From positions 1 to 64,000 of the forward strand of contig LDWW01000005.1 of NCBI GenBank assembly GCA_001045525.1: a DNA stretch of 64,000 nt, read 5' to 3'. Positions within the stretch are counted from its first letter, which is position 1. Each line of letters starts with the position of its first letter. A model generated the notes under the pieces. That model saw only the letters and a program-made list of their open reading frames with translations, ran no database searches and was not told the DNA's origin. Origin of the DNA: Chitinispirillum alkaliphilum. Lineage in GTDB: Bacteria > Fibrobacterota > Chitinivibrionia > Chitinivibrionales > Chitinispirillaceae. A program made the translations under genes and the position numbers. Positions 44,026 through 56,727 of the stretch are shown here, piece by piece.

Positions 44026-45076
44026 AAAGTTCTCTAAGTCGGTTCTGAGCTTTTTCAACATATCCCAAACGCATCTCTTTGTCTCTGGCCATAATGTCTA
44101 TTGCATCTTTGAGTTTCTGGGGATTATGTGGCTCCACCAGCATACCGCACTCGCCATTATCAAGAACATCCGGAATGCCTCCTGCCCTGCTTGCAATAAT
44201 CGGAATGCGGTGTGCCATAGCTTCAAGCAGCACAATCCCAAAGCCCTCAGTGCCCTCTCTGCACTCCCTGGAATAAAGCACAAAAAGATCGGCAAGACTG
44301 TACTGCTCAGAGAGTTCTGAATCCGTTAACCCTTCCAGTATTTCAACTCTGCTACCCACTCCCAACACGCATGAAAGCCTGAGAAGCCTGTTTTTCTCCT
44401 GTCCGGTTCCCGCAATTACGAGAGTCCAGTCAAAATATTTGTCAACAGACGACAGTGCTTTAAGAAGTAAATCGTGCCCTTTATGATAAACCAGTCGCCC
44501 TACCGTTAAAATTCTCAATTTTTTGGATATGTCAACCTTTTCCTTTACAACCCCGGGAAGTTGGATTTTCGGTGTAACCACTCTGACTTCTCCATCATAT
44601 CCACACTCCCTTAAGAGCTGTTGGGTATAACTGCCAAGAACAAACACTACCTGAGCTTTTTTCAAAACTTTGATAAGAAAAAGGGATCGAATGTTTTTTT
44701 TTCGGAGTGCAATAAGCTCTGTTCCGTATGAATAAACAGAATAATTTACATCGAAAAAAAAGGAGAGCAGATAGGGGGCAACCGCTGCATAAACATTTCC
44801 ACACTCGATATTTATTTTTTTGTCCCTTTTTGATCTAAGTGTGAGAAACAATGGAGTAAGCATTGATATCAGGGATAGTTTTTTGTTCCATTTCGAAAGA
44901 AATGTAGAAAAATAGCGTATGGGGCAGGGAAAATTTTGCTCAGTTTGATCCACTTTTCCTGCAGCTCCAACGAAAACCATATCTGATGAAGAAAAGGTAT
45001 GACGAACTATTTCACCCAGATAGTTTTGAATCCCCCCTCTTTCAGGAGCGAAATCAAGCGTTACCATGATTTTCAT
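44015..45076 (-). CDS. GT4 family glycosyltransferase
   Basis: The 353-residue GT4 enzyme has MVTLDFAPERGGIQNYLGEI at the N-terminus, LRILTVGRLVYHKGHDLLL mid-chain, and EGFGIVLLEAMAHRIPIIA before the C-terminus. It starts inside the end of the polymerase gene (23 bp overlap) and overlaps the next GT4 gene, forming a tight run wzy-GT4-GT4. It is expected to act with its neighbours on the lipid-linked repeat unit. Confidence 0.88.
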   Translation of the reverse strand: MKIMVTLDFAPERGGIQNYLGEIVRHTFSSSDMVFVGAAGKVDQTEQNFPCPIRYFSTFLSKWNKKLSLISMLTPLFLTLRSKRDKKINIECGNVYAAVAPYLLSFFFDVNYSVYSYGTELIALRKKNIRSLFLIKVLKKAQVVFVLGSYTQQLLRECGYDGEVRVVTPKIQLPGVVKEKVDISKKLRILTVGRLVYHKGHDLLLKALSSVDKYFDWTLVIAGTGQEKNRLLRLSCVLGVGSRVEILEGLTDSELSEQYSLADLFVLYSRECREGTEGFGIVLLEAMAHRIPIIASRAGGIPDVLDNGECGMLVEPHNPQKLKDAIDIMARDKEMRLGYVEKAQNRLRELYVW

Positions 45077-46541
45077 CAGAACCCATTGCCTTATCTGTGT
45101 TTACATTCCGGGAGAAGTACAAGCTGACAAGCACTCCGTTCCAAAACCAAAAGTAGCTATCTCCTGGAAAGGAATGGATATGTGTGCCGGTGAAGTTAAT
45201 AATTGCAAATGTGATATTAAATACAGTTATACCTTTGGCCAGAACAATCACTGATCTGTCTTTTGAAGAATCTATCAGTCGTATTCCGTAGATTATAAAA
45301 GCCGCTATAAGTGAAATGATGAACAGTAACCCCGGATATCCAAACTGAGCCAAATAATCAAAATATATGGAATCAGAACTGAATGTACCAGTTCCTCTGC
45401 CCAGAATGGCATAAAGGGGGTTCAAAGAGCTTGCAAAAACGTACCTCCACAGTGCAAGTCTTGAGACCATTGAGTACTCGACAAAAGGATTAACCAAAGC
45501 CCCGATTCTGTCAGTTACAAGCATAGATATATAATCTCTTTCCTGCATTCTGCTATAAACAACCGGAGCAGATCTCAGAAACGGGTTTTCCTCAAACCCC
45601 AATTGAATAAACTGAGCTCCAAAATACGCCAGAATCATCACCACCAAAACAGCCAATCTGCGTTTATTCCCTTTTACTGCCAAAATAGTGAACCAAACCA
45701 ATAGTGATATTACCATGCCTGCCCAATTGGAGCGAACAGAAGTGATAAGTATGCCATAAAAAAACAGCGGAATGAAAAGGAGGAAAAATTTCCCTTTTGC
45801 GGAATTACTCCAGGAGTAGAGAATCAACACAGCAATAATCCCAAGCTGAAGATAATCAGCGAAAGCAGCCGGTGATTGAAATGTTGAAAAGGGGCGTGCC
45901 ATCCCTTCAATGAATAATGAGGTAAAGGAGATGGATGAAAACCAGATCCGTTCAGCTTCCGAATACCCCCAAAATAATTGGTTTATTCCATACATAGCTG
46001 TGATAAAAGCGATCAGAAATGTTATCAGCCATAATTTTTTAAGCATTTTGAAATCTTTAGAAAAGGTAATCCCTATGAAAAACATCAGTACCTGAGGAGC
46101 ATAGAATCTTAGATTCAGCACTCCTTCCCGCAATTGGTTGGAGTTGAAAACAAAGGTTCTGAAGATAACATAGATGAAGTAGCAGAGAACTACGGTTGTA
46201 AAGACACGGAGACCGTTGTTATCCTCGGAATATTTTCGAAATACAAACAGAAGTCCAGTTGTAATAAAGATGGTTAAAATATCACCCAGAATAATAAGCG
46301 GGTCTGCATCAGGCCTTAAATAAACAAGGTAGTACAATCTTCTGAAAAAGGGAACAAATGGCATTAAAAAAAAAATTATATATACCCCACACTTTGGATA
46401 CCTGAAAACGGGGTAAAACAGGAGCAACGAGATGAGCGCAACTAATTCAAGCTGAGCAGGAAGTGAAACAATGTTAAAGGCAATAATTTGCCCGACAATA
46501 ACAGCAATTATGCAATAAACGGGAGTAATGCATCTCTTCAT
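45054..46541 (-). CDS. O-antigen ligase/polymerase-like membrane protein (Wzy/WaaL type)
   Basis: The 495-residue protein has about 12 hydrophobic helices and a large periplasmic loop between about residues 330 and 400 (RSAPVVYSRMQERDYISM, ALWRYVFASSLNPLYAILG). Wzy_C-like motifs are SVRSNWAGM and GRGTGTFSSDS. Such proteins polymerise or ligate oligosaccharide units on the outer face of the inner membrane. Its place before two GT4 genes and near wzc/wza makes polymerase the likely role. It is 59 bp downstream of the cheX-like gene. Confidence 0.82.
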   Translation of the reverse strand: MKRCITPVYCIIAVIVGQIIAFNIVSLPAQLELVALISLLLFYPVFRYPKCGVYIIFFLMPFVPFFRRLYYLVYLRPDADPLIILGDILTIFITTGLLFVFRKYSEDNNGLRVFTTVVLCYFIYVIFRTFVFNSNQLREGVLNLRFYAPQVLMFFIGITFSKDFKMLKKLWLITFLIAFITAMYGINQLFWGYSEAERIWFSSISFTSLFIEGMARPFSTFQSPAAFADYLQLGIIAVLILYSWSNSAKGKFFLLFIPLFFYGILITSVRSNWAGMVISLLVWFTILAVKGNKRRLAVLVVMILAYFGAQFIQLGFEENPFLRSAPVVYSRMQERDYISMLVTDRIGALVNPFVEYSMVSRLALWRYVFASSLNPLYAILGRGTGTFSSDSIYFDYLAQFGYPGLLFIISLIAAFIIYGIRLIDSSKDRSVIVLAKGITVFNITFAIINFTGTHIHSFPGDSYFWFWNGVLVSLYFSRNVNTDKAMGSDENHGNA

Positions 46542-46600: not shown

Positions 46601-47074
46601 CTATCTCTTGGGTTCAGGTGTTTTCAGGGAGATTTCCATAGCGAAATCACCAAGACCGGAATCGAATGGAACCACCAGAGTCGGTACTCCCCTTCCGGAG
46701 GCAATCCTGTGGTCTTTACCGAAGATTACTTTGGGCAGGGAAATGGAGAGGTTATACGAAGTTAAGTGCTGTTTTGCATTTCCCGCGACAATATTGACAA
46801 GTTCCCCAACACCATCGGCAATATCAGGACCGACAATTTTAATTTCCATACCAAGCAAAGCGGAAATAACTTTCAGAGCAACAATTTTTGGAAAACTAAG
46901 ACAAATTGACCCCTGAGCTTCACCGGACAGACCTATGATTCCGGAGACATCGTATGTATAGGATGCCTCATTTTTTTTTATTGCCAGCTTACCCGGTTTT
47001 ATGTCGGTGTTAAGCATTTTTCCGAAAGTTTCTATAGTAGAGATAACAAAAGGATTAACATATGAAACATCCAT
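46601..47074 (-). CDS. CheX-like chemotaxis phosphatase family protein
   Basis: The 157-residue protein matches the CheC/CheX/FliY phosphatase fold. The diagnostic helix DGVGELVNIVAGNAK (about 88-102) carries the ExxN motif (Glu 91, Asn 94), used by CheX to dephosphorylate CheY-type receivers. No chemotaxis gene is near, and it is placed between the rhamnose genes and the polymerase of the exopolysaccharide run, so it may act on a response regulator controlling that locus. Confidence 0.8.
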   Translation of the reverse strand: MDVSYVNPFVISTIETFGKMLNTDIKPGKLAIKKNEASYTYDVSGIIGLSGEAQGSICLSFPKIVALKVISALLGMEIKIVGPDIADGVGELVNIVAGNAKQHLTSYNLSISLPKVIFGKDHRIASGRGVPTLVVPFDSGLGDFAMEISLKTPEPKR

Positions 47075-47173: not shown

Positions 47174-48157
47174 TTAAAGGAGTTTTTCCCACCACCATTG
47201 GTTTTCTTTGTACCATTGGATAGTTGTTTTGATCCCCTCTTCAAATGATATTTTTGGAATCCACCCAAGCTCATCCTTTATTCTGGAGGCATCGATTGCG
47301 TATCTTCTGTCGTGCCCAAGCCTGTCTTCAACATACGATATAAGTGATTCCGGCTTTTGTAACACTTTCAGGATTTCTTTAACGATAAATATGTTCTGCT
47401 TTTCGTTGTTGCCACCAATGTTAAAAACACTGCCTGGCTTACCTTTCAGCATAACCGTTTCTACAGCTGAACAATGATCAGAAACATGAAGCCAGTCCCT
47501 TACGTTGAGTCCGTCTCCGTAGACAGGAAGTGATTTGTCGTTCATAGCATTTATAATCATAAGAGGAATCAGCTTTTCGGGGTACTGAAAGGGCCCGTAG
47601 TTATTTGAACATCGTGTAATGATCCCGGGGAAGCCAAAAGTTTCATAATAGGAGCGTACAAGCAGATCGCTGCCGGCCTTGCTTGCTGAATAGGGACTGT
47701 TTGGTGAAATCGGAGTATCCTCTGTAAAATAACCTTCAGCTCCCAGTGTGCCGTACACTTCATCTGTAGACACATGTACGAAACGTTTGTTTTCAAATGA
47801 GCTCTTCCAGGCTTCTTTTGCAGCATGCAGAAGGATTTGGGTACCGAGAACATTTGTTTTAACGAACTGGTCTGGTCCTTCTATGCTTCTGTCAACGTGA
47901 GATTCTGCAGCGAAATGTACAACAAAATCAAAATCGTACTCAGAAAACATACTTTCCACAGTCAACTTGTCACAGATGTCACCCTTTATGAACTTGTAAT
48001 TGTCTTTTTTTTCAACAGATCGCAAATTATCCAGATTCCCCGCATATGTTAGTGCATCAAAGTTGACAATAAAGTAATCATTTCTGTTTTCCAACATCTG
48101 AGAGACAAAATTTGAGCCTATGAAACCGGCTCCGCCAGTAACCAGTACAGTTTTCAT
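47174..48157 (-). CDS. rfbB: dTDP-glucose 4,6-dehydratase
   Basis: RfbB converts dTDP-glucose to dTDP-4-keto-6-deoxyglucose. The 327-residue protein shows TGGAGFIGSNFVSQML, VVHFAAESHVDRSI, the catalytic STDEVYG and YSASKAGSD, TRCSNNYGPFQYPEKLIP, and DWLHVSDHCSA. It overlaps rfbD by 4 bp (ATGA), so the two are translationally coupled. rfbA and rfbC are not in this window. Confidence 0.96.
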   Translation of the reverse strand: MKTVLVTGGAGFIGSNFVSQMLENRNDYFIVNFDALTYAGNLDNLRSVEKKDNYKFIKGDICDKLTVESMFSEYDFDFVVHFAAESHVDRSIEGPDQFVKTNVLGTQILLHAAKEAWKSSFENKRFVHVSTDEVYGTLGAEGYFTEDTPISPNSPYSASKAGSDLLVRSYYETFGFPGIITRCSNNYGPFQYPEKLIPLMIINAMNDKSLPVYGDGLNVRDWLHVSDHCSAVETVMLKGKPGSVFNIGGNNEKQNIFIVKEILKVLQKPESLISYVEDRLGHDRRYAIDASRIKDELGWIPKISFEEGIKTTIQWYKENQWWWEKLL

Positions 48158-49056
48158 CTTTTTTCTTTTTCCTCTTTTAGTTGTGCTTCAGTTTCGAGAT
48201 ATTTTCTAAATCCTTCAAGCCAGTGAGGCATTAGATTTGCCCCTAAGCTTTTAAGTTTTTTATTTTCAAGAACGCTGAAAAATGGCCTTGGTGCAGGCCG
48301 CGGGAACTCCTCTGTCGGACAGGGTTTAATGCAAACAGGAATTTTCGCCTCAGCAATAATCTCAGCTGCAAAGTCATACCAGGAACACACTCCTTCACTT
48401 GTACAATGGAATAATCCGGTCTGCTCCAGCTCAATCAGCTTTAATGCCTGATTGCATACATCCACGGTCCATGTCGGACTCCCAAACTGATCGGAAACTA
48501 CCTTGAGGTTTTCCCCCGAGGCAGCTTTATCAGATGCCACTGAACGCATGGTTTTGACGAAATTTTTGCCATAAAAACCATAGAGCCAGGCAATTCTTAA
48601 GATCAGATTTTTATCCCATGTTTCTGAGATGTTTTTTTCTCCTGCCAATTTTGACTTTCCATACACAGTTTTCGGTTCCGTTGGATCCATCTCTGTATAT
48701 GGAGTTGAACTGTCGCCGCTGAAAACATAATCGGTGCTGAAATGTACAAGCAGGGCACCTGTTTCCCTTGCACTGAGAGCAAGATACTTAGGTCCTTCTG
48801 CATTCAGGGCATAGGCGTTTTTCTGCTCTGTCTCACAAAGATCGACTGCGGTAAAGGCTGCGCAATTTACAATGATATCAGGTGCTTCTGAAACGACAGT
48901 TTTAAGCACAGATTTTTCATCAGCTAAGTTAATGTGAGGAAAATCTGTCCCGGTAACATCGTACCCTGCGTTTCGGGCCGATATCAGGAAATCACTTCCA
49001 AGCTGTCCTCCGGATCCTATCACAAGTAATTTTTTTTTCATAAACTCAAAGCTCAT
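48154..49056 (-). CDS. rfbD: dTDP-4-dehydrorhamnose reductase
   Basis: RfbD makes dTDP-L-rhamnose from the 4-keto sugar. The 300-residue protein shows the N-terminal IGSGGQLGSDF, NCAAFTAVDLCE, FSTDYVFSG, YGKSKLAGE and ILRIAWLYGFYGKNFVKTM. The start is 49056 or 49041 (MKKKLLVIGS). It precedes rfbB with a 4-bp overlap. Presence of rhamnose genes suggests rhamnose in the polysaccharide. Confidence 0.94.
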   Translation of the reverse strand: MSFEFMKKKLLVIGSGGQLGSDFLISARNAGYDVTGTDFPHINLADEKSVLKTVVSEAPDIIVNCAAFTAVDLCETEQKNAYALNAEGPKYLALSARETGALLVHFSTDYVFSGDSSTPYTEMDPTEPKTVYGKSKLAGEKNISETWDKNLILRIAWLYGFYGKNFVKTMRSVASDKAASGENLKVVSDQFGSPTWTVDVCNQALKLIELEQTGLFHCTSEGVCSWYDFAAEIIAEAKIPVCIKPCPTEEFPRPAPRPFFSVLENKKLKSLGANLMPHWLEGFRKYLETEAQLKEEKEKR

Positions 49057-49065
49057 AGTCTGAAG

Positions 49066-50634
49066 TTAAAAAAGGTTACGTGACAACTGCAGCTGAGGTT
49101 CATAACAGGTCCTGTTACCTCTTTTTACAGGTGTAACAGGTAACTCATGCTGTCTGAATACCCACCCCTGCCTTCCGGTAAATCTACTATATTGCGACAT
49201 AATGTCGTTTGAGGTAAGATTCGTTTCGATATTTGAAATAAGCTGATCTGCCAAAAGGGCACTCATGACTATATTTTGTTCCCTTAAACCCTCAAACAGA
49301 TGTCTTAATACTTCAATCTGGCGCTTTTTGCTATCTGCAATTCCCGAAATCCCCGATGAGAGGAATTCTATAAGCTGCGCATCGGAAAGTTTGTTTTGGC
49401 CTCCCGGTACATTGAGCGCAGAAGCTGCAGCCGGATCAACAGGTACAGTGACGCCTCCCAGTGCATTTGCAGTACGAATAATATCGTATCTATCCATTAC
49501 AAAATAGTTTGCGATTCTCAGATTTATAACTCTTTCAAGCAAAGAGCTAACAATAACCGGTCCTCCATACAAAAAAGCCTGATCAATAGTAGCAAATCCA
49601 TGTACAAACTGTTCTATAAGAAGCTCCGGCGGGATTCTGATAACATTAACTGTTGCAGTTTCAAAGTGCAGGCTTATTACATAGAAAGTATAAGGTAGTC
49701 CGCAGAAAAGAAAGTTCAGTGGTAAATTACGTGTAAGATATAACCTTCTTTGTTCTTCAAGGGGAGAAAATCTTGCGCTCATATCGTTTTCGTCAGTTAA
49801 ACTGGTGATCTGAAACGGACGTCCATCCTGATGCACGATCGCAGTCTGTCCTGAAATAATATTTACAGCTTCTGAGCCGTCATGTCTCTCCAGATAGACC
49901 AGCCCGTCGAGATTACTTACGATAACCTGGCCAGCTCTTAGCTGTATGAAAAATTCTGCACCCGATCCCCCGACTGTGATTGATGCCTGAGGTGTATTAA
50001 TACGGTAAACTTCTCTCTTTTCTCCCACTTCGATTTTATACCAGCACAGCCCTGACCGTTGAAAGAGCTCTAATGAAGGCCTTCCCCTGTCATCAACATC
50101 TATTTTGTCGATGATTATTTCAGAGAAGTTATCCAGATCGACTCTTGAGCCTCTGCTCAGCGACACTTCTGCCTGTGAGGCGGCCTCGGTTTGAATCCTG
50201 TCCCCCTCGCTGAGCATAGCACCTTCGACTGCAGGCAAAATCCTGCCATCGCCGCTTAAAAGAGTCATCTCTCCCAGGAAAAATTCAAGCCGCACATTTG
50301 GAATATCTCTTAGCCCGGCAGGTGATTCGAGCTCCCCTACATCAAGAGCGTCATTGTCAATCACCTGGTTTACAAGAGTAAACGGGGAAATGTCTGAGCT
50401 GGATCTCACACCTGCAGCCTTGAGCAGTTCAAATTCTGTTGTTCCATAAGGAACCCTGTAATATCCGGGCCTTCTTACATTTCCTTCAACCACAACCTTA
50501 ATTGAACTGTGGTCAGAAGAGAGAAAGGTTGGGAACATAGTGCGTGTCAGGGCCAAAGCCTGCCAGGCGATTCCGGCAATGACCAGAAAGTAGACAAATG
50601 TTCTGGCTTTTCTAAATCTCTTTTTGGCCCGCAT
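49066..50634 (-). CDS. SLBB-FecR-LCP fusion membrane protein
   Basis: The 522-residue protein has an N-terminal membrane anchor (about 13-32). It is followed by an SLBB-like domain (VVVEGNVRRPGYYRVPYGTT, about 47-66 onward) as in polysaccharide export proteins, and by a FecR-like beta domain (MLSEGDRIQTEAASQAEVSL, then INTPQASITVGGSG, about 140-280). The C-terminal part (about 310-460) resembles LytR-CpsA-Psr (LCP) domains: VNVIRIPPELLIEQF, IDQAFLYGG, FVMDRYDIIRTANALGGV, KKRQIEVLRHLFEGL. The catalytic Arg/Asp of LCP (IPRD and the later Arg pair) are absent (IPPE; FLSSG), so it may bind rather than transfer glycan. It sits between wzc and rfbD in the exopolysaccharide run. Confidence 0.7.
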   Translation of the reverse strand: MRAKKRFRKARTFVYFLVIAGIAWQALALTRTMFPTFLSSDHSSIKVVVEGNVRRPGYYRVPYGTTEFELLKAAGVRSSSDISPFTLVNQVIDNDALDVGELESPAGLRDIPNVRLEFFLGEMTLLSGDGRILPAVEGAMLSEGDRIQTEAASQAEVSLSRGSRVDLDNFSEIIIDKIDVDDRGRPSLELFQRSGLCWYKIEVGEKREVYRINTPQASITVGGSGAEFFIQLRAGQVIVSNLDGLVYLERHDGSEAVNIISGQTAIVHQDGRPFQITSLTDENDMSARFSPLEEQRRLYLTRNLPLNFLFCGLPYTFYVISLHFETATVNVIRIPPELLIEQFVHGFATIDQAFLYGGPVIVSSLLERVINLRIANYFVMDRYDIIRTANALGGVTVPVDPAAASALNVPGGQNKLSDAQLIEFLSSGISGIADSKKRQIEVLRHLFEGLREQNIVMSALLADQLISNIETNLTSNDIMSQYSRFTGRQGWVFRQHELPVTPVKRGNRTCYEPQLQLSRNLF

Positions 50635-50756
50635 TTTCCCTCTCCCCGTTCAGTGGTCAGAAGAACGCTTCTCTTCTAAAGTAATGGTGTGCTTATTCTG
50701 CCCGGCTTTGTTTACAACATTACCAATCAGAAGCAGTGTGTGTCAGGTCGTTTTCT

Positions 50757-53459
50757 TTATTGGCTTAATTTTGGCGCCGGCCCTATATACCTTATATGAT
50801 CCTCTGGTTGACTTGTCATACGTGACCTTTGTAACACGTTTACTCCAAGGAGCAGAATAAATATAGCTATAAGGATAATAAATATTTTTTTCCTCACCAA
50901 GCTTCTTAGAAAAGTAGCTGTCCCTGACAGGTATACCGGTATGGAATAGAGAGCATTTTTAAAACTTCGGATACTGAAATTTTCCAGTTTCAGGCCAATT
51001 TTGCGCAAGGAAAAGGGCTTCGGAGCATCACTTTCGTAAGAGTATTTATAAGAGTAATAGCCGTAATATCCATAATATGGGTAATATCCCTTGGAATAGG
51101 AAACTCCGTTCAGTATTCCTCCATAAATTTTGGATCCTATTCTTGCGAGCTGATTTTTTGCCTGTTTTGCGGCTTTAAGCGGAGTCCACAACATTCTTAC
51201 AACAAACAGACAGCAATCCATTTTCGGCGCCATAATCAGCGAGTCGCTTACAGGAAGTAAAGCCGGTGAATCAAAAAGTACAATATCTGCTCTATTTCTC
51301 AGCTCCCCGATAAGTTTTTTAAACCTTGCAGTGCCTATAAGTTCAGCAGGATTATTTGGCCTTTGTCCGGATGTAATGATCGACAGGTTTTCATATTTTG
51401 TAGGCTTTACTATCTCATCTGCATCTCTGACAGCACAAAGGTACTCACTGAGTCCAATCCCCTTATCCATGCTGAAGAGGTTATGCAGCTGTGATCGTCT
51501 TAAATCAGCATCTATCAGTATCACCTTTTTCCCATCCATTGCAAAAGTAACAGCCAGATTCGCAGCCAGAGTCGTTTTCCCTTCCCCTTTAACAGCACTG
51601 CAAACCATGAATGTCTTTAATGAATTTGCCTGGATAAGATGGTTTATATTCGCTCTTAAGGCCCTGAAAGGTTCAAGGATGTTTTTGGTGATCGAGTCGG
51701 AATTCTCCACCAGTGCTTTATCTGCTTCTATGAATGGAACTATCCCAAGAAGCGGCACTTCAAGATCCCGTTCTATTACAGCGGGATCCTTTATGCTCTG
51801 GTCGATATACTCGATCAGAAAAGCAAGCCCAATCCCTAGAATGAGCCCTACAAATACGCTCACGAAAATTCTATTGATTCGATAATCGGATACCGAGAAA
51901 TTAGGAGTTTCGGCATATTCAAGTATTGAAAGGTCAGCTTCCTGGCTGTCTCTTTTGATCCTGGCTTCCTCGTATCTGGTTCTCAGGAGGTTTAATGTCT
52001 GAAGGGTACTCTCTGTGTCACGCTGAAGGTTAGCATAGGTTTGCTGAATCTGAGGAAGCTGCAACAATTCAGCATTGAGCCTATCAATTATCTGCTCCTG
52101 AGCATTGCGGCGCGTTTCGAGAGCCGATTTTTCAATCGTAATATTTACATATTTCTGCAAAAGAGACTGTCGAATAGGATTAGTCACTCTGGTTTCACTT
52201 GTAGACTGGCGTGAGATCTCAGATGCTGCAGCTTCCTTTATATTATCGATCTGCTGCATCAGTGATCTTACACGAAAGTGTTCAGGGCTGTGCTGGGCCA
52301 GTAAGGTGTTGAGCTGAAGTTCCAGCTCTTCCAGTTTTCTCTGGAAAGGTTTCTGAAAAGTCATGGACTGTACTATATCGGCATCCTGCTGACTTATCTG
52401 AGACTGAAGTGCGACAAGGCGCTCCCTGCTTTCTACTATATCAAGCCTTGTCCTTTGTAAGGCGAACTCCATCTCCGCAAGTTTAGAAACCACAAGGTTG
52501 GTTTCACTTGAGAGCTGCGCCATCTGGTTATCCTCTTTAAATTCCCTCAGACGATCTTCCTTATGTTGGAGATCGGTTTGAAGATTTTCAATTTGTGAGC
52601 GCAGCCTCATTATCAACCTGTTTGCTTCCTGAGCATCCACATCCCTTCGGTAATCGATATATGTTCGGCTGAGTTCATTGAGAACATCCCGTGCCATTTC
52701 AGCGTCCTCATGCCTGAAACTCATCTCGATGATATCCGTTCTCTGTCCTTCCACTTCTCTGCGCGATATTGTAAGCCCGGTTCTTATCTGAGTGGGACTG
52801 ACTTTATTCTGCAGGTTCTCAGATGCCATGTTCAGAACTATATTCGACCTGAGCAGTTCAAAATGAGTGTAGAACATCTTCTCACGATCACGAAACATGG
52901 TCCAGGATCTGTGATCGGAAGCAAAAACATCACGGTCTTCAGGCCTGAAAAGTAAACGTGCCCGCGAAGTATAGTGCCTTGAGCTGTTGAGAAATGAATA
53001 GGCAGAGTGAAGTCCCACAAGAAATGCCACCACAAGAATTATGTATTTGCGTCTGAAGATCACGGCAAGATATTTGCCAATGTCAAATACGTCCTCTTCC
53101 TTATCATCCCCACCCAGAGATAACGGTATTGACTTTACAGGATGTTGCTCCTGTTTATCTTTGCTTTCCTCATTGTGTAATGCTGAAGAGTGTGCCTCTT
53201 GTGGTTTTTCTGCTCTTTTAGCTTGCGGTTGTTCGAAATGCTTTCTGGCGCGGGGATTTGAGTAATCGGGCTGAGGGGGAAGATCGTTTCCCTGAAAGGA
53301 AGACTGATTTTCGTTTTCCTTAATCTTGTCGCTTTGGTTTTCCAGGCGGGAAGGGGTGACTCGATTTTCCGTATCATGCCCTGAAGAGGCAGAAGAACGC
53401 TCTTCTGCTTCGTTAAGTTTTTTTATTATATCCCCTAAGCTGAATTTCTTTTTACTCAT
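50757..53459 (-). CDS. Wzc-like polysaccharide co-polymerase with BY-kinase domain
   Basis: The ~900-residue protein combines a long acidic/basic cytosolic N-terminus (about 1-120), a Wzz/chain-length domain between TM1 (about 140-160) and TM2 (about 530-550) with coiled coils, and a BY-kinase domain with Walker A KGEGKTTLAAN (about 620-630) and IDADLRRSQLHNLF. A Tyr cluster (GYYPYYGYYGYYSYKYSY, about 783-805) is the usual autophosphorylation tail. Unusually, ~90 residues follow it, including a third membrane helix (about 855-875) and a short end that would lie in the periplasm. ATG 53459 overlaps the stop of the AAA gene (ATGA). Likely controls polymer length and export with Wza. Confidence 0.88.
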   Translation of the reverse strand: MSKKKFSLGDIIKKLNEAEERSSASSGHDTENRVTPSRLENQSDKIKENENQSSFQGNDLPPQPDYSNPRARKHFEQPQAKRAEKPQEAHSSALHNEESKDKQEQHPVKSIPLSLGGDDKEEDVFDIGKYLAVIFRRKYIILVVAFLVGLHSAYSFLNSSRHYTSRARLLFRPEDRDVFASDHRSWTMFRDREKMFYTHFELLRSNIVLNMASENLQNKVSPTQIRTGLTISRREVEGQRTDIIEMSFRHEDAEMARDVLNELSRTYIDYRRDVDAQEANRLIMRLRSQIENLQTDLQHKEDRLREFKEDNQMAQLSSETNLVVSKLAEMEFALQRTRLDIVESRERLVALQSQISQQDADIVQSMTFQKPFQRKLEELELQLNTLLAQHSPEHFRVRSLMQQIDNIKEAAASEISRQSTSETRVTNPIRQSLLQKYVNITIEKSALETRRNAQEQIIDRLNAELLQLPQIQQTYANLQRDTESTLQTLNLLRTRYEEARIKRDSQEADLSILEYAETPNFSVSDYRINRIFVSVFVGLILGIGLAFLIEYIDQSIKDPAVIERDLEVPLLGIVPFIEADKALVENSDSITKNILEPFRALRANINHLIQANSLKTFMVCSAVKGEGKTTLAANLAVTFAMDGKKVILIDADLRRSQLHNLFSMDKGIGLSEYLCAVRDADEIVKPTKYENLSIITSGQRPNNPAELIGTARFKKLIGELRNRADIVLFDSPALLPVSDSLIMAPKMDCCLFVVRMLWTPLKAAKQAKNQLARIGSKIYGGILNGVSYSKGYYPYYGYYGYYSYKYSYESDAPKPFSLRKIGLKLENFSIRSFKNALYSIPVYLSGTATFLRSLVRKKIFIILIAIFILLLGVNVLQRSRMTSQPEDHIRYIGPAPKLSQ

Positions 53460-54307
53460 CTCCACTGTTCCTGCATATCATCCAGTATGACCTGTAGATC
53501 TTCCCTTGATATTTCATCAAGTCCCTGTGCGAAGCCATATTGAAGAGCGATTTTGCAAATGCGATTGATCATCCTGGGCACACCACCGGTTGAACGAAAG
53601 ATGAGCTCCTGGGCAAGACTGGTAAAAATTGTAGTTCTTTGGATTCCGGCAACTCTGAGCCGGTGCTGTATATAGTTGATAGTCCCATTATAATCGAGAT
53701 TGTTCAAGTGAAATCTCAGAAATATCCTCTGGTCGACTTGAGGGAGGCGCCTTGTTTTTTCTCTTAGTTCCGGTTGTCCGACAAGAAAAACTGTAATGTA
53801 GTTTTCTGCACCGGAGCCAATATTGGTGAGGTTTTTAATCTCATCCAACACCTTGTCTTCAATCTGCTGAGCCTCATCGAAGATAATAACCAGATGTCTT
53901 TTTTCTTCGAAAAACAGTGTTTCGAGCTGTCTTCTGAAATGGCAGGTGAGTGCATATTTGTCATCTCTTGACGGTACATCAGTCTCCATCAAAGCAAGTC
54001 TTGTGTCACGAAATGTTATTCTGTTGATTATGTCGTAGAGAATATCTTCAAATGAAAAGGATGAGTTGTCGAAATCAATAACTTCGAAATTATGCCTGTT
54101 CAGGGAATTGGAGAAGACATTTTTTGTTATTGTTTTTCCAGAACCAACTTCTCCGGTCAGAAGCCCCATATTCATGTTCCAGTCATTTACTATATATAAC
54201 ATCCTGTCAAGGGCTTCTCTGTGATCTTCGCTTTCAAAATAAAAACGGGTATCGCAAAGTTCTTCAAATGGCTTTTCTCTTAAATCCCAATATGTTGTAT
54301 AGCTCAT
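53456..54307 (-). CDS. AAA ATPase, ExeA/GspA-like (XrtA-associated type)
   Basis: The 283-residue ATPase begins MSYTTYWDLREKPFEELCDT, the hallmark of ExeA-type proteins and of the ATPase found in exosortase/exopolysaccharide loci. Walker A is GEVGSGKT (about 52-59), Walker B is LVIIFDEAQ, and a C-terminal AAA lid has GGVPRMINRICKIA. There is no membrane anchor or peptidoglycan-binding domain, unlike secretion ExeA. It overlaps wzc by 4 bp, so expression is coupled. Role inferred: energy-dependent assembly or regulation of the export machine. Confidence 0.85.
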   Translation of the reverse strand: MSYTTYWDLREKPFEELCDTRFYFESEDHREALDRMLYIVNDWNMNMGLLTGEVGSGKTITKNVFSNSLNRHNFEVIDFDNSSFSFEDILYDIINRITFRDTRLALMETDVPSRDDKYALTCHFRRQLETLFFEEKRHLVIIFDEAQQIEDKVLDEIKNLTNIGSGAENYITVFLVGQPELREKTRRLPQVDQRIFLRFHLNNLDYNGTINYIQHRLRVAGIQRTTIFTSLAQELIFRSTGGVPRMINRICKIALQYGFAQGLDEISREDLQVILDDMQEQWR

Positions 54308-54312
54308 TTTTT

Positions 54313-55236
54313 TTAACCCTGTGTAAGTTTGATAAGATTACGGGTGATAGATTGAAAACAATCACCGGTCTTAGTTTGGCCATTGAGCACAATCGGCTTC
54401 ATCTCTTTAATTGAGGCACGCACCTCATGTGAAAAAGTCACATATCCGATGTAATGCAGACGAATAGACAGGTACTTTTTTACGATTTCGGAAAAACGCT
54501 CTCCGATTTTTATATCCTCATTTGATCTTACCATATTGAGTATGAGAAATGTTTTCCGCTTTTTGAGCCACTCCCTCATTGTATCGGTTTCTGCCGGATA
54601 TTGTTTTGATAACAATCTTATGAGTTCGTCAATCGTAACCGACCCTCTGGCAGTTCCAGGATTGGTAAATGTGCGGATTGCGTTATGAATCTCTCTTCTG
54701 CCAGGAAACAAACGCATCAGCCCCCTTACAATACCGCTTTTCAAAAAGCCATAAGCGTTTTCTATCGACAAAGGCATTCCATCTATCACAACGATACTGT
54801 TAGTGAATGCCGCATAAAAATCGGTAACATTGAAATCACTCCCAGCCCCGAGGTCCACGAAGATATAATCGGCCTTCATTTTTTTCAGGTTATTGAGAAT
54901 TTTCTGTTTCTGGGCATATTTGGGGTTTGATAGTTCCAGAAAATCACTTGCTCCGCTTATAAGCCAGCTTCCCGGCACTGCAGTTTGAACTGCAACATCA
55001 GACAAAGCTTTTTTGCTTCCACATACAAAGTCCTGCAATCCAAAAGCAGGGCGTTTGACTCCGAGGCAAAGATGAAGATTTGCTCCTCCAAGATCAGCAT
55101 CAATAAATCCTACAGAATGTCCCTGATTTGCAATCAACGCACCGATATTGGCAGTGATAGTACTTTTACCTACCCCTCCTTTACCGCCACCTACAGAGAT
55201 AAAAATTGGATTGCTCATTTGAAAGTTATTCAGCAC
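54313..55236 (-). CDS. MinD/FlhG-like P-loop ATPase
   Basis: The 307-residue ATPase has the deviant Walker A GGGKGGVGKSTI (about 16-27), FIDADLGGANLHLCLGV and FVDLGAGSDFNV, as in MinD/ParA/FlhG proteins. The C-terminal part is less typical and lacks an obvious amphipathic membrane-targeting helix. Start is either 55236 or 55218 (MSNPIFISVGGG). It lies between wza and the AAA ATPase in the exopolysaccharide run. A spatial positioning or regulatory role for the export apparatus is inferred from context only. Confidence 0.82.
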   Translation of the reverse strand: MLNNFQMSNPIFISVGGGKGGVGKSTITANIGALIANQGHSVGFIDADLGGANLHLCLGVKRPAFGLQDFVCGSKKALSDVAVQTAVPGSWLISGASDFLELSNPKYAQKQKILNNLKKMKADYIFVDLGAGSDFNVTDFYAAFTNSIVVIDGMPLSIENAYGFLKSGIVRGLMRLFPGRREIHNAIRTFTNPGTARGSVTIDELIRLLSKQYPAETDTMREWLKKRKTFLILNMVRSNEDIKIGERFSEIVKKYLSIRLHYIGYVTFSHEVRASIKEMKPIVLNGQTKTGDCFQSITRNLIKLTQG

Positions 55237-55255: not shown

Positions 55256-55900
55256 TTACCGGGAGCTCAGTCTGTCAATTGTCAAAGTTATACTTAAAGA
55301 AACATTGATGATCCCAAGAATTGTAGCAATAAGGCTCCATGGAACAGAGAACCCTTCAGGAACATACATTGTGTCACCGGGATAAAGCACATATCGGTTC
55401 ATATCCCGTGTTCCGCCTCTCCCAAACAGATCATTAAAAGGAACCTCTACAACAGACCCATCTGAGCGTATGATTCTGATATCGGAAGATCTGCTTCTTC
55501 TTAAACCACCGCTCATTGCGATAGCCTTCATAACATCCAAAGGTTCGTATATGTCATACTGGCCGGCACGAACCACATTGCCTATGATATACACCTTATT
55601 TGCATAATAAGATTCTATAGATACGGAAACCACCGGGTTGTTTACATAGGAGGCGAGTTTTCCCTGCATTATTCTCACAAGCTGAGCCGGAGTGGTGGTT
55701 GCCGCATCAATCTCACCTATAACAGGATAATTTATGCGTCCATCAGGCCTGATTTTGTGTCTCCCCGAAAACTCAGGATGTTCCACAACCGTGATGGAAA
55801 TTACATCTCCGGGCTGTAAAACGTACTCTGCAATCTGACCACTAGAATGCATGGTCAGGAAAAACAGAAACGCTAATATTTTAATTTCTCTCATAGTCAT
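55256..55900 (-). CDS. Polysaccharide export protein (Wza family, short form)
   Basis: The 214-residue protein has a signal peptide (about 1-21), the Poly_export motif YVLQPGDVISITVVEHPEFS, PDGRINYPVIGEI, and one SLBB domain (VYIIGNVVRAGQYDI, AMSGGLRRSR, VLYPGDTMYVPEGF). It ends in a hydrophobic helix (WSLIATILGIINVSLSITL), so it may be membrane-anchored at the C-terminus rather than forming the full Wza barrel. It is the first gene after a near-consensus promoter. Confidence 0.88.
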   Translation of the reverse strand: MTMREIKILAFLFFLTMHSSGQIAEYVLQPGDVISITVVEHPEFSGRHKIRPDGRINYPVIGEIDAATTTPAQLVRIMQGKLASYVNNPVVSVSIESYYANKVYIIGNVVRAGQYDIYEPLDVMKAIAMSGGLRRSRSSDIRIIRSDGSVVEVPFNDLFGRGGTRDMNRYVLYPGDTMYVPEGFSVPWSLIATILGIINVSLSITLTIDRLSSR

Positions 55901-56037: not shown

Positions 56038-56727
56038 TCAATTCTCATTCTGATCCAAAGCATCATCTTCAGACTCGGAAATTGTAGTGTCTGTCTCTGT
56101 CAAAGATGTGCTGTCATCACTGAACCGGATATTTTCAGGTTTCTGGATGGAAACGGAGTTCATGTTGCCGTTATGTACGATTCTCTGCAATGCTGCACCG
56201 GGGAAACTGATATCCCGCTTTTCTCCGGATCTCGATAATGACAAAGTCAAAGAAGTATCGGTAAAGATCATCGCGAAAGTTATTATCACCAGCAGAGAAA
56301 AAGTGGAGACAGCTGCCACGGCTGTTATTTTAAACCTCCGATTGTCATCATTTTTCCGCCGGTTTACACACTTACCCTTTATTGAACGATGGGCTGAAAG
56401 CAGAAATTTCTGAAGATTGCTTTGGAACTCCTCAAATTCCTTTTTCTCGGAAAACTCTTCAAACGAAGGTTCGCTTACAGTTCCCTGCCAGTTTGAATAA
56501 AACCATTCATCAGGATCTTCGATTTTTCTGTTTTGTATAAAATCCCTGTAGAGATTTTCACAATGGGGAAAAAGTTCTTCACTTATTTCCTCATACCCCT
56601 TCCCATCCCTTCGCATTGAAATCACACAGCTTCTGATTTGCTGCAAAAAGAGGGTGTGAAAAGCACAGGGATCACCCTGCAACGCCAAATGTACCAACAG
56701 TTCTTGTTTTGAATTTATTTTTTTCAT
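56038..56727 (-). CDS. Single-pass membrane protein with sigma-factor-like N-terminus
   Basis: I do not recognise this 229-residue protein as a known family. The N-terminal ~60 residues (KQELLVHLALQGDPCAFHTL, then FHTLFLQQIRSCVISM) look like the start of an ECF sigma region 2 (LV..A..GD..AF..L). No region 4 is present; instead residues ~68-130 are acidic then basic, followed by a membrane helix (about 133-155) and a ~75-residue periplasmic, Ser/Thr/acidic tail. It lies upstream of the exopolysaccharide promoter on the same strand, and divergent from ribD. It could be a membrane regulator, but this is inference. Confidence 0.6.
   Translation of the reverse strand: MKKINSKQELLVHLALQGDPCAFHTLFLQQIRSCVISMRRDGKGYEEISEELFPHCENLYRDFIQNRKIEDPDEWFYSNWQGTVSEPSFEEFSEKKEFEEFQSNLQKFLLSAHRSIKGKCVNRRKNDDNRRFKITAVAAVSTFSLLVIITFAMIFTDTSLTLSLSRSGEKRDISFPGAALQRIVHNGNMNSVSIQKPENIRFSDDSTSLTETDTTISESEDDALDQNEN

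Follow-up and report, generated by a model that had tools for sequence, protein, structure and literature searches.

The window analysed here is a 64,000-nucleotide stretch of the Chitinispirillum alkaliphilum genome (contig LDWW01000005.1, positions 1 to 64,000). Its minus strand carries an exopolysaccharide gene run in which one gene encodes a fusion of an SLBB domain, a FecR domain and a degenerate LytR-CpsA-Psr (LCP) domain. The fusion gene and its parts are listed below, with the basis of each assignment in brackets.

50638..50647 (-): ribosome-binding site GGGGAGAGGG of the fusion gene (sequence)
49066..50634 (-): SLBB-FecR-pseudoLCP fusion gene, 522 aa (ORF, Pfam, family alignment, AlphaFold model)
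50536..50604 (-): single N-terminal transmembrane helix, residues about 11-33 (sequence; model helix 2-33)
50323..50508 (-): SLBB domain, residues 43-104 (partial Pfam; structure matches)
49786..50301 (-): FecR / cell-surface-signalling domain, residues about 112-283 (Pfam FecR 145-246; structure matches)
49069..49725 (-): pseudo-LCP domain, residues 304-522 (Pfam, PDB profile matches, structure matches)
49624..49635 (-): degenerate SIPRD motif, IPPE, residues 334-337, R267 replaced by P336 (profile alignment, family)
49351..49365 (-): degenerate YxRxR motif, FLSSG, residues 424-428, R362 and R364 lost (profile alignment, family)
49318..49332 (-): degenerate RxxRQ segment, SKKRQ, residues 435-439, R374 lost, Arg-Gln kept (profile alignment, family)

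The reading frame proposed in the first-pass annotation at 49066-50634 proved to be real: it starts with ATG behind a strong ribosome-binding site and is conserved in relatives, where it is full-length and free of internal stops. Given its lone N-terminal hydrophobic helix, the product is predicted to be a single-pass inner-membrane protein with the remainder in the periplasm. A promoter scan gave a site count not above that of shuffled sequence, and a terminator scan found no clear excess.

The three-domain make-up claimed in that annotation was borne out by Pfam, PDB profile matches and an AlphaFold model built from 18 sequences (mean pLDDT 80). FecR (E=1e-8) and LytR_cpsA_psr (E=2e-6) both scored above the curated Pfam cut-offs. 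SLBB gave a partial Pfam match slightly below the cut-off (E=6e-5); we nevertheless accept this assignment because the corresponding part of the model matches the SLBB domain of ComEA (Z 10.3) and the Myxococcus class-3 OPX protein WzaB (Z 7.9). The FecR part matches PupR (Z 16.6) and BDI_1681 (Z 16.2). With a profile of 18 relatives, crystal structures of LCP proteins were retrieved at E=6e-12 to 5e-6, and residues 304-522 of the model match Staphylococcus aureus LcpA (Z 19.1), Bacillus subtilis TagV (19.0) and Cps2A (18.7). The alpha-beta-alpha LCP fold is complete (Z 19, rmsd 2.8 over 218 residues), so that the fold previously placed at about residues 310-460 is indeed there and extends further than was claimed, over 304-522. 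The NCBIfam model TIGR00350 scored 32.2 bits against a domain cut-off of 62.3, which was thus not reached, and Pfam found no Poly_export domain (PF02563) in the protein. NCBIfam matches to Lsa33, LipL45, LapA retention and ComEA proteins lay under their cut-offs and were set aside as partial domain resemblance. PPR-protein matches at residues 445-488 in the PDB profile search look like sporadic repeats, gain no support from the model and were likewise rejected.

The host group consists of chitin-degrading bacteria with Gram-negative-type cells. The fusion is present in 25 of the 61 Fibrobacterota genomes searched, and weaker matches elsewhere are to the FecR domain alone. Its nearest named relative is from a Chitinispirillum sp. 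(61% identity), and the other loci belong to Chitinispirillaceae, Chitinivibrionales and other Fibrobacterota MAGs. In searches of genome contigs, a single-protein query gave no match and an alignment query found 17 loci. Across 168 Fibrobacterota genomes, PF03816 matches occur in 25, which are the same genomes and lie at the fusion loci; no LCP domain outside the fusion family was found in this set, nor was a second LCP found in the window's own genome. On plasmids the SLBB-FecR-LCP architecture was not found, and the four weak matches there were LCP domains alone. One relative (locus L024 of genome G007, 1339-2757) has no SLBB domain and retains FecR, LCP and the operon position, so SLBB is not indispensable.

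LCP enzymes link glycans to the cell wall. As a reference we used seven canonical LCPs from plasmids of Bacillota, Actinomycetota, Deinococcota and Pseudomonadota, and aligned them profile to profile with the fusion family (E about 1e-17 to 1e-19). All seven share, without variation, the first-loop Asp and the motifs R-x-D, S-x-PRD, YxRxR and DxxRxxRQ. Cps2A numbering was assigned by spacing and checked against the Priestia megaterium reference, in which the 12-residue R362-R374 and 4-residue R374-Q378 spacings match; the roles of the Cps2A residues follow published work (PMC7831098). On this mapping, which rests on the alignment and the predicted model, the Mg-binding Asp positions are gone (D234 loop deleted, D246 replaced by Y315), as are the catalytic Arg positions (R267 by P336, R362 by S426, R374 by S435); R364 and D371 are replaced by G428 and I432, and Q378 (Q439) is the sole one retained. 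The loss of key Arg and Asp residues suspected from the window thus holds against canonical LCPs, and it extends to the 25 family members: R267 is kept in 2/25, R362 in 3/25 and R374 in 0/25, and therefore no member has all three catalytic arginines. Single changes R118A, R219A and R227A in TagT each abolish transfer (PMC11337229), and R149A and R266A of Actinomyces oris LcpA are inactive (PMC6381275), so loss of transfer would be expected from one missing Arg. Since the frames are stop-free and conservation of the LCP part (0.56) is near that of SLBB (0.64) and FecR (0.61), we regard it as a maintained domain and not a decaying gene; G357, G358, E367 and G393 are invariant across all 25 members.

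Prenyl pyrophosphate binding is retained in Cps2A R267A (PMC11337229). At positions mapped to the pocket-lining residues listed for Streptococcus dysgalactiae LytR (PMC11337229), hydrophobic residues predominate in the family (F60 23/25, T97 24/25, M99 22/25, V153 23/25, L160 25/25, A209 25/25, I261 23/23), although this is an ambiguous sign of binding because any folded core also shows hydrophobic positions. Variation is almost absent at the sites equivalent to Y274 and T259, and 24/25 members have a new basic residue (K/R382) near the pocket. Some pocket sites carry bulkier residues (A209 to Leu, S84 to Val), with which the pocket could be filled in.

The fusion gene lies within an operon whose other members are as follows.

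56038..56727 (-): first operon gene; helical domain, one transmembrane helix, periplasmic tail
55256..55900 (-): short OPX, Poly_export + SLBB (domain searches, synteny)
54313..55236 (-): MinD-like ATPase (domain searches, synteny)
53456..54307 (-): AAA ATPase related to the XrtA/PEP-CTERM-associated ATPase (TIGR03015 6e-48, below the equivalog cut-off)
50757..53465 (-): cognate Wzc; Wzz + GNVR + tyrosine kinase, Tyr-rich tail, extra C-terminal hydrophobic helix (domain searches, synteny, co-occurrence)
48154..49056 (-): RmlD-like (dTDP-rhamnose) gene, directly downstream of the fusion (sequence reading; order in relatives)
47174..48157 (-): RmlB-like gene (sequence reading; order in relatives)

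The order OPX, MinD, AAA ATPase, Wzc, fusion, RmlD/RmlB is kept in relatives with flanking sequence; in a few of their loci a member is missing or undetected, and their operon is preceded by divergent riboflavin genes and a gene for a small membrane protein. The C-terminal hydrophobic helix after the Tyr-rich tail of the Wzc is, to our knowledge, unusual among Wzc kinases. The first operon gene has a conserved helical N-terminal domain with the motif LLxxLAxxGDPxAF, followed in relatives by a Pro-rich periplasmic tail. Pfam and PDB sequence searches gave no match for it, and its best three structure matches, all weak (Z 5.5 to 4.9), are to Escherichia coli sigma-E region 2; it may possibly be a membrane-tethered sigma-like regulator. 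Within the same exopolysaccharide run, a CheX-type chemotaxis phosphatase gene (46601-47074, minus strand) stands between RmlB and a gene for a 495-aa polytopic protein (45054-46541, minus strand) that is Wzy/ligase-like by eye and had no match in a Pfam search.

The proposed association with the neighbouring Wzc and OPX is upheld by this conserved synteny and by the distribution of the cognate Wzc, which occurs in exactly the 25 of 61 genomes that have the fusion (E 1e-125 or better, with 2e-49 as the best elsewhere), a co-occurrence that is confined to one lineage and therefore not independent evidence of interaction. Of the 25 fusion genomes, 23 have the cognate AAA ATPase, which was not found in any of the 36 others; G041 and G043, two genomes placed deeper within the phylum, combine fusion and Wzc but lack this ATPase. 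OPX genes occur in 61/61 genomes, so the fusion is linked to one exporter type and not to export generally.

The fusion is probably an LCP pseudoenzyme, anchored in the inner membrane and acting in the periplasm as an accessory to one particular Wzc/OPX exopolysaccharide exporter. Because the active site is lost and the gene lies beside one exporter, its role is probably in sugar export rather than attachment. In the mechanism that we propose, the LCP domain would bind polyprenyl-linked polymer, or the lipid of that polymer, in its pocket, taken as retained, and would not transfer it to peptidoglycan. SLBB and FecR would contact polymer, Wzc or OPX, and the protein would help to pass the chain from Wzc towards the outer membrane. 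That the fusion is both such an accessory and a binder of lipid-linked polymer seems to us a balanced proposition. The fuller reading, in which an undescribed class of LCP pseudoenzymes would take hold of polyprenyl-linked polysaccharide at the inner membrane and hand it from Wzc to OPX through SLBB and FecR, is advanced tentatively.

The first-pass annotation had suggested a possible glycan-sensing adaptor that would tie export to wall attachment. The export half of that suggestion gains support from the synteny and from the co-occurrence with the cognate Wzc. The attachment half, in which the fusion would couple export to covalent attachment alongside an active LCP enzyme, recalls Gram-positive cps/eps operons, where LCP genes adjoin Wzz and CpsD (for example, on a Lactococcus plasmid). 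However, all LCP matches in the 168 Fibrobacterota genomes belong to the degenerate family and no other LCP was found in the window's own genome, which leaves the fusion without an LCP ligation step to be tied to; the described Chitinispirillum type strain (4.4-Mb genome), moreover, has a Gram-negative wall (PMC4814513). We consider this coupling highly improbable. Residual catalysis, with the domain transferring or hydrolysing lipid-linked glycan through a different residue set, could be read from the retained Arg438-Gln439 and from the new basic residue 382 by the pocket in 24/25 members. Nevertheless, the Mg-binding Asp and all three catalytic arginines are lost with no conserved polar replacement set, and the catalytic positions vary freely among relatives, which makes an enzyme improbable.

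Two further alternatives keep the protein in the export machinery. The LCP fold may be a pure scaffold, a protein-protein module bridging Wzc and OPX whose closed pocket binds nothing, as the bulkier pocket residues and the strict co-occurrence of fusion and cognate Wzc would suggest; a precedent is the dead tyrosine kinase EcpK of the Myxococcus EPS machine, for whose PCP it has been proposed as a scaffold (PMC12004946). Yet the hydrophobic pocket lining and the near-invariant Y274/T259 equivalents exceed what a mere scaffold may need, and we regard this reading as possible and somewhat unlikely. Alternatively, the protein may be a sensor or regulator, whose FecR domain would monitor the polymer or the state of the envelope and relay this inward to control synthesis, with LCP and SLBB as ligand binders. 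The likeness of the FecR domain to the signalling domain of PupR, an anti-sigma factor (Z 16.6), and the weak sigma-E region 2-like cytoplasmic domain of the first operon gene (Z 5.5) point this way. However, only about 10 residues precede the transmembrane helix of the fusion, hence there is no cytoplasmic anti-sigma domain; Z 5.5 is under the level counted as telling, and no DNA-binding region 4 was detected in the first operon gene. A sensor is thus unlikely.

If the fuller reading is true, a Gram-positive wall-attachment fold has been repurposed as an export part in diderm bacteria. In diderms, the passage of polymer from the inner-membrane polymerase and Wzc to the outer-membrane channel, and its release from the lipid carrier, are poorly understood, and an inactive LCP domain that is fixed in, and reserved for, a single type of exporter would give a handle on this hand-over step. 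A literature search, outside which most subscription journals lay, found no paper that names LytR-CpsA-Psr together with FecR, or LytR together with SLBB. The individual parts are known, whereas the domain combination and the fixed pseudo-LCP are undescribed as far as could be tested.

Compared with known systems, the fusion shares with the LCP transferases Cps2A, TagT/U/V and LcpA a transmembrane helix followed by an accessory region and the LCP fold, the hydrophobic pocket positions, and a gene within a Wzz/Wzc-type polysaccharide operon. It differs from them in lacking the catalytic Arg and the Mg-binding Asp, in having SLBB and FecR as accessory domains, and in its diderm host with OPX export. 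In the Gram-positive (Lactococcus) operon LCP is a neighbour of Wzz/CpsD, whereas here its counterpart is inactive and joined to export-type domains. Like the OPX proteins Wza and WzaB (class 3, Myxococcus), the fusion has an SLBB fold, and it shares its operon with OPX and Wzc; unlike them, it has no Poly_export domain and carries an inner-membrane anchor, FecR and LCP. FecR/PupR cell-surface-signalling regulators likewise place a periplasmic FecR-type domain after one transmembrane helix, but the fusion lacks their cytoplasmic anti-sigma domain and, unlike in those systems, the neighbouring genes that were examined included none recognisable as encoding a TonB-dependent transporter. The operon also resembles XrtA/PEP-CTERM-associated EPS loci in combining relatives of the XrtA-associated ATPase, the tyrosine kinase and OPX; the genome also has two exosortase (EpsH) genes (C5:90758-91441 and C10:92600-93367), one of which lies 27 kb past the window end. 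In contrast to those loci, scores here are below the equivalog cut-offs and the operon contains no exosortase gene. Finally, EcpK is, like the fusion, a dead enzyme retained in a Wzx/Wzy-type exporter, the Myxococcus EPS machine, although the two differ in fold and sit on opposite sides of the membrane; the fusion would thus add an LCP example to this known pseudoenzyme of such machines.
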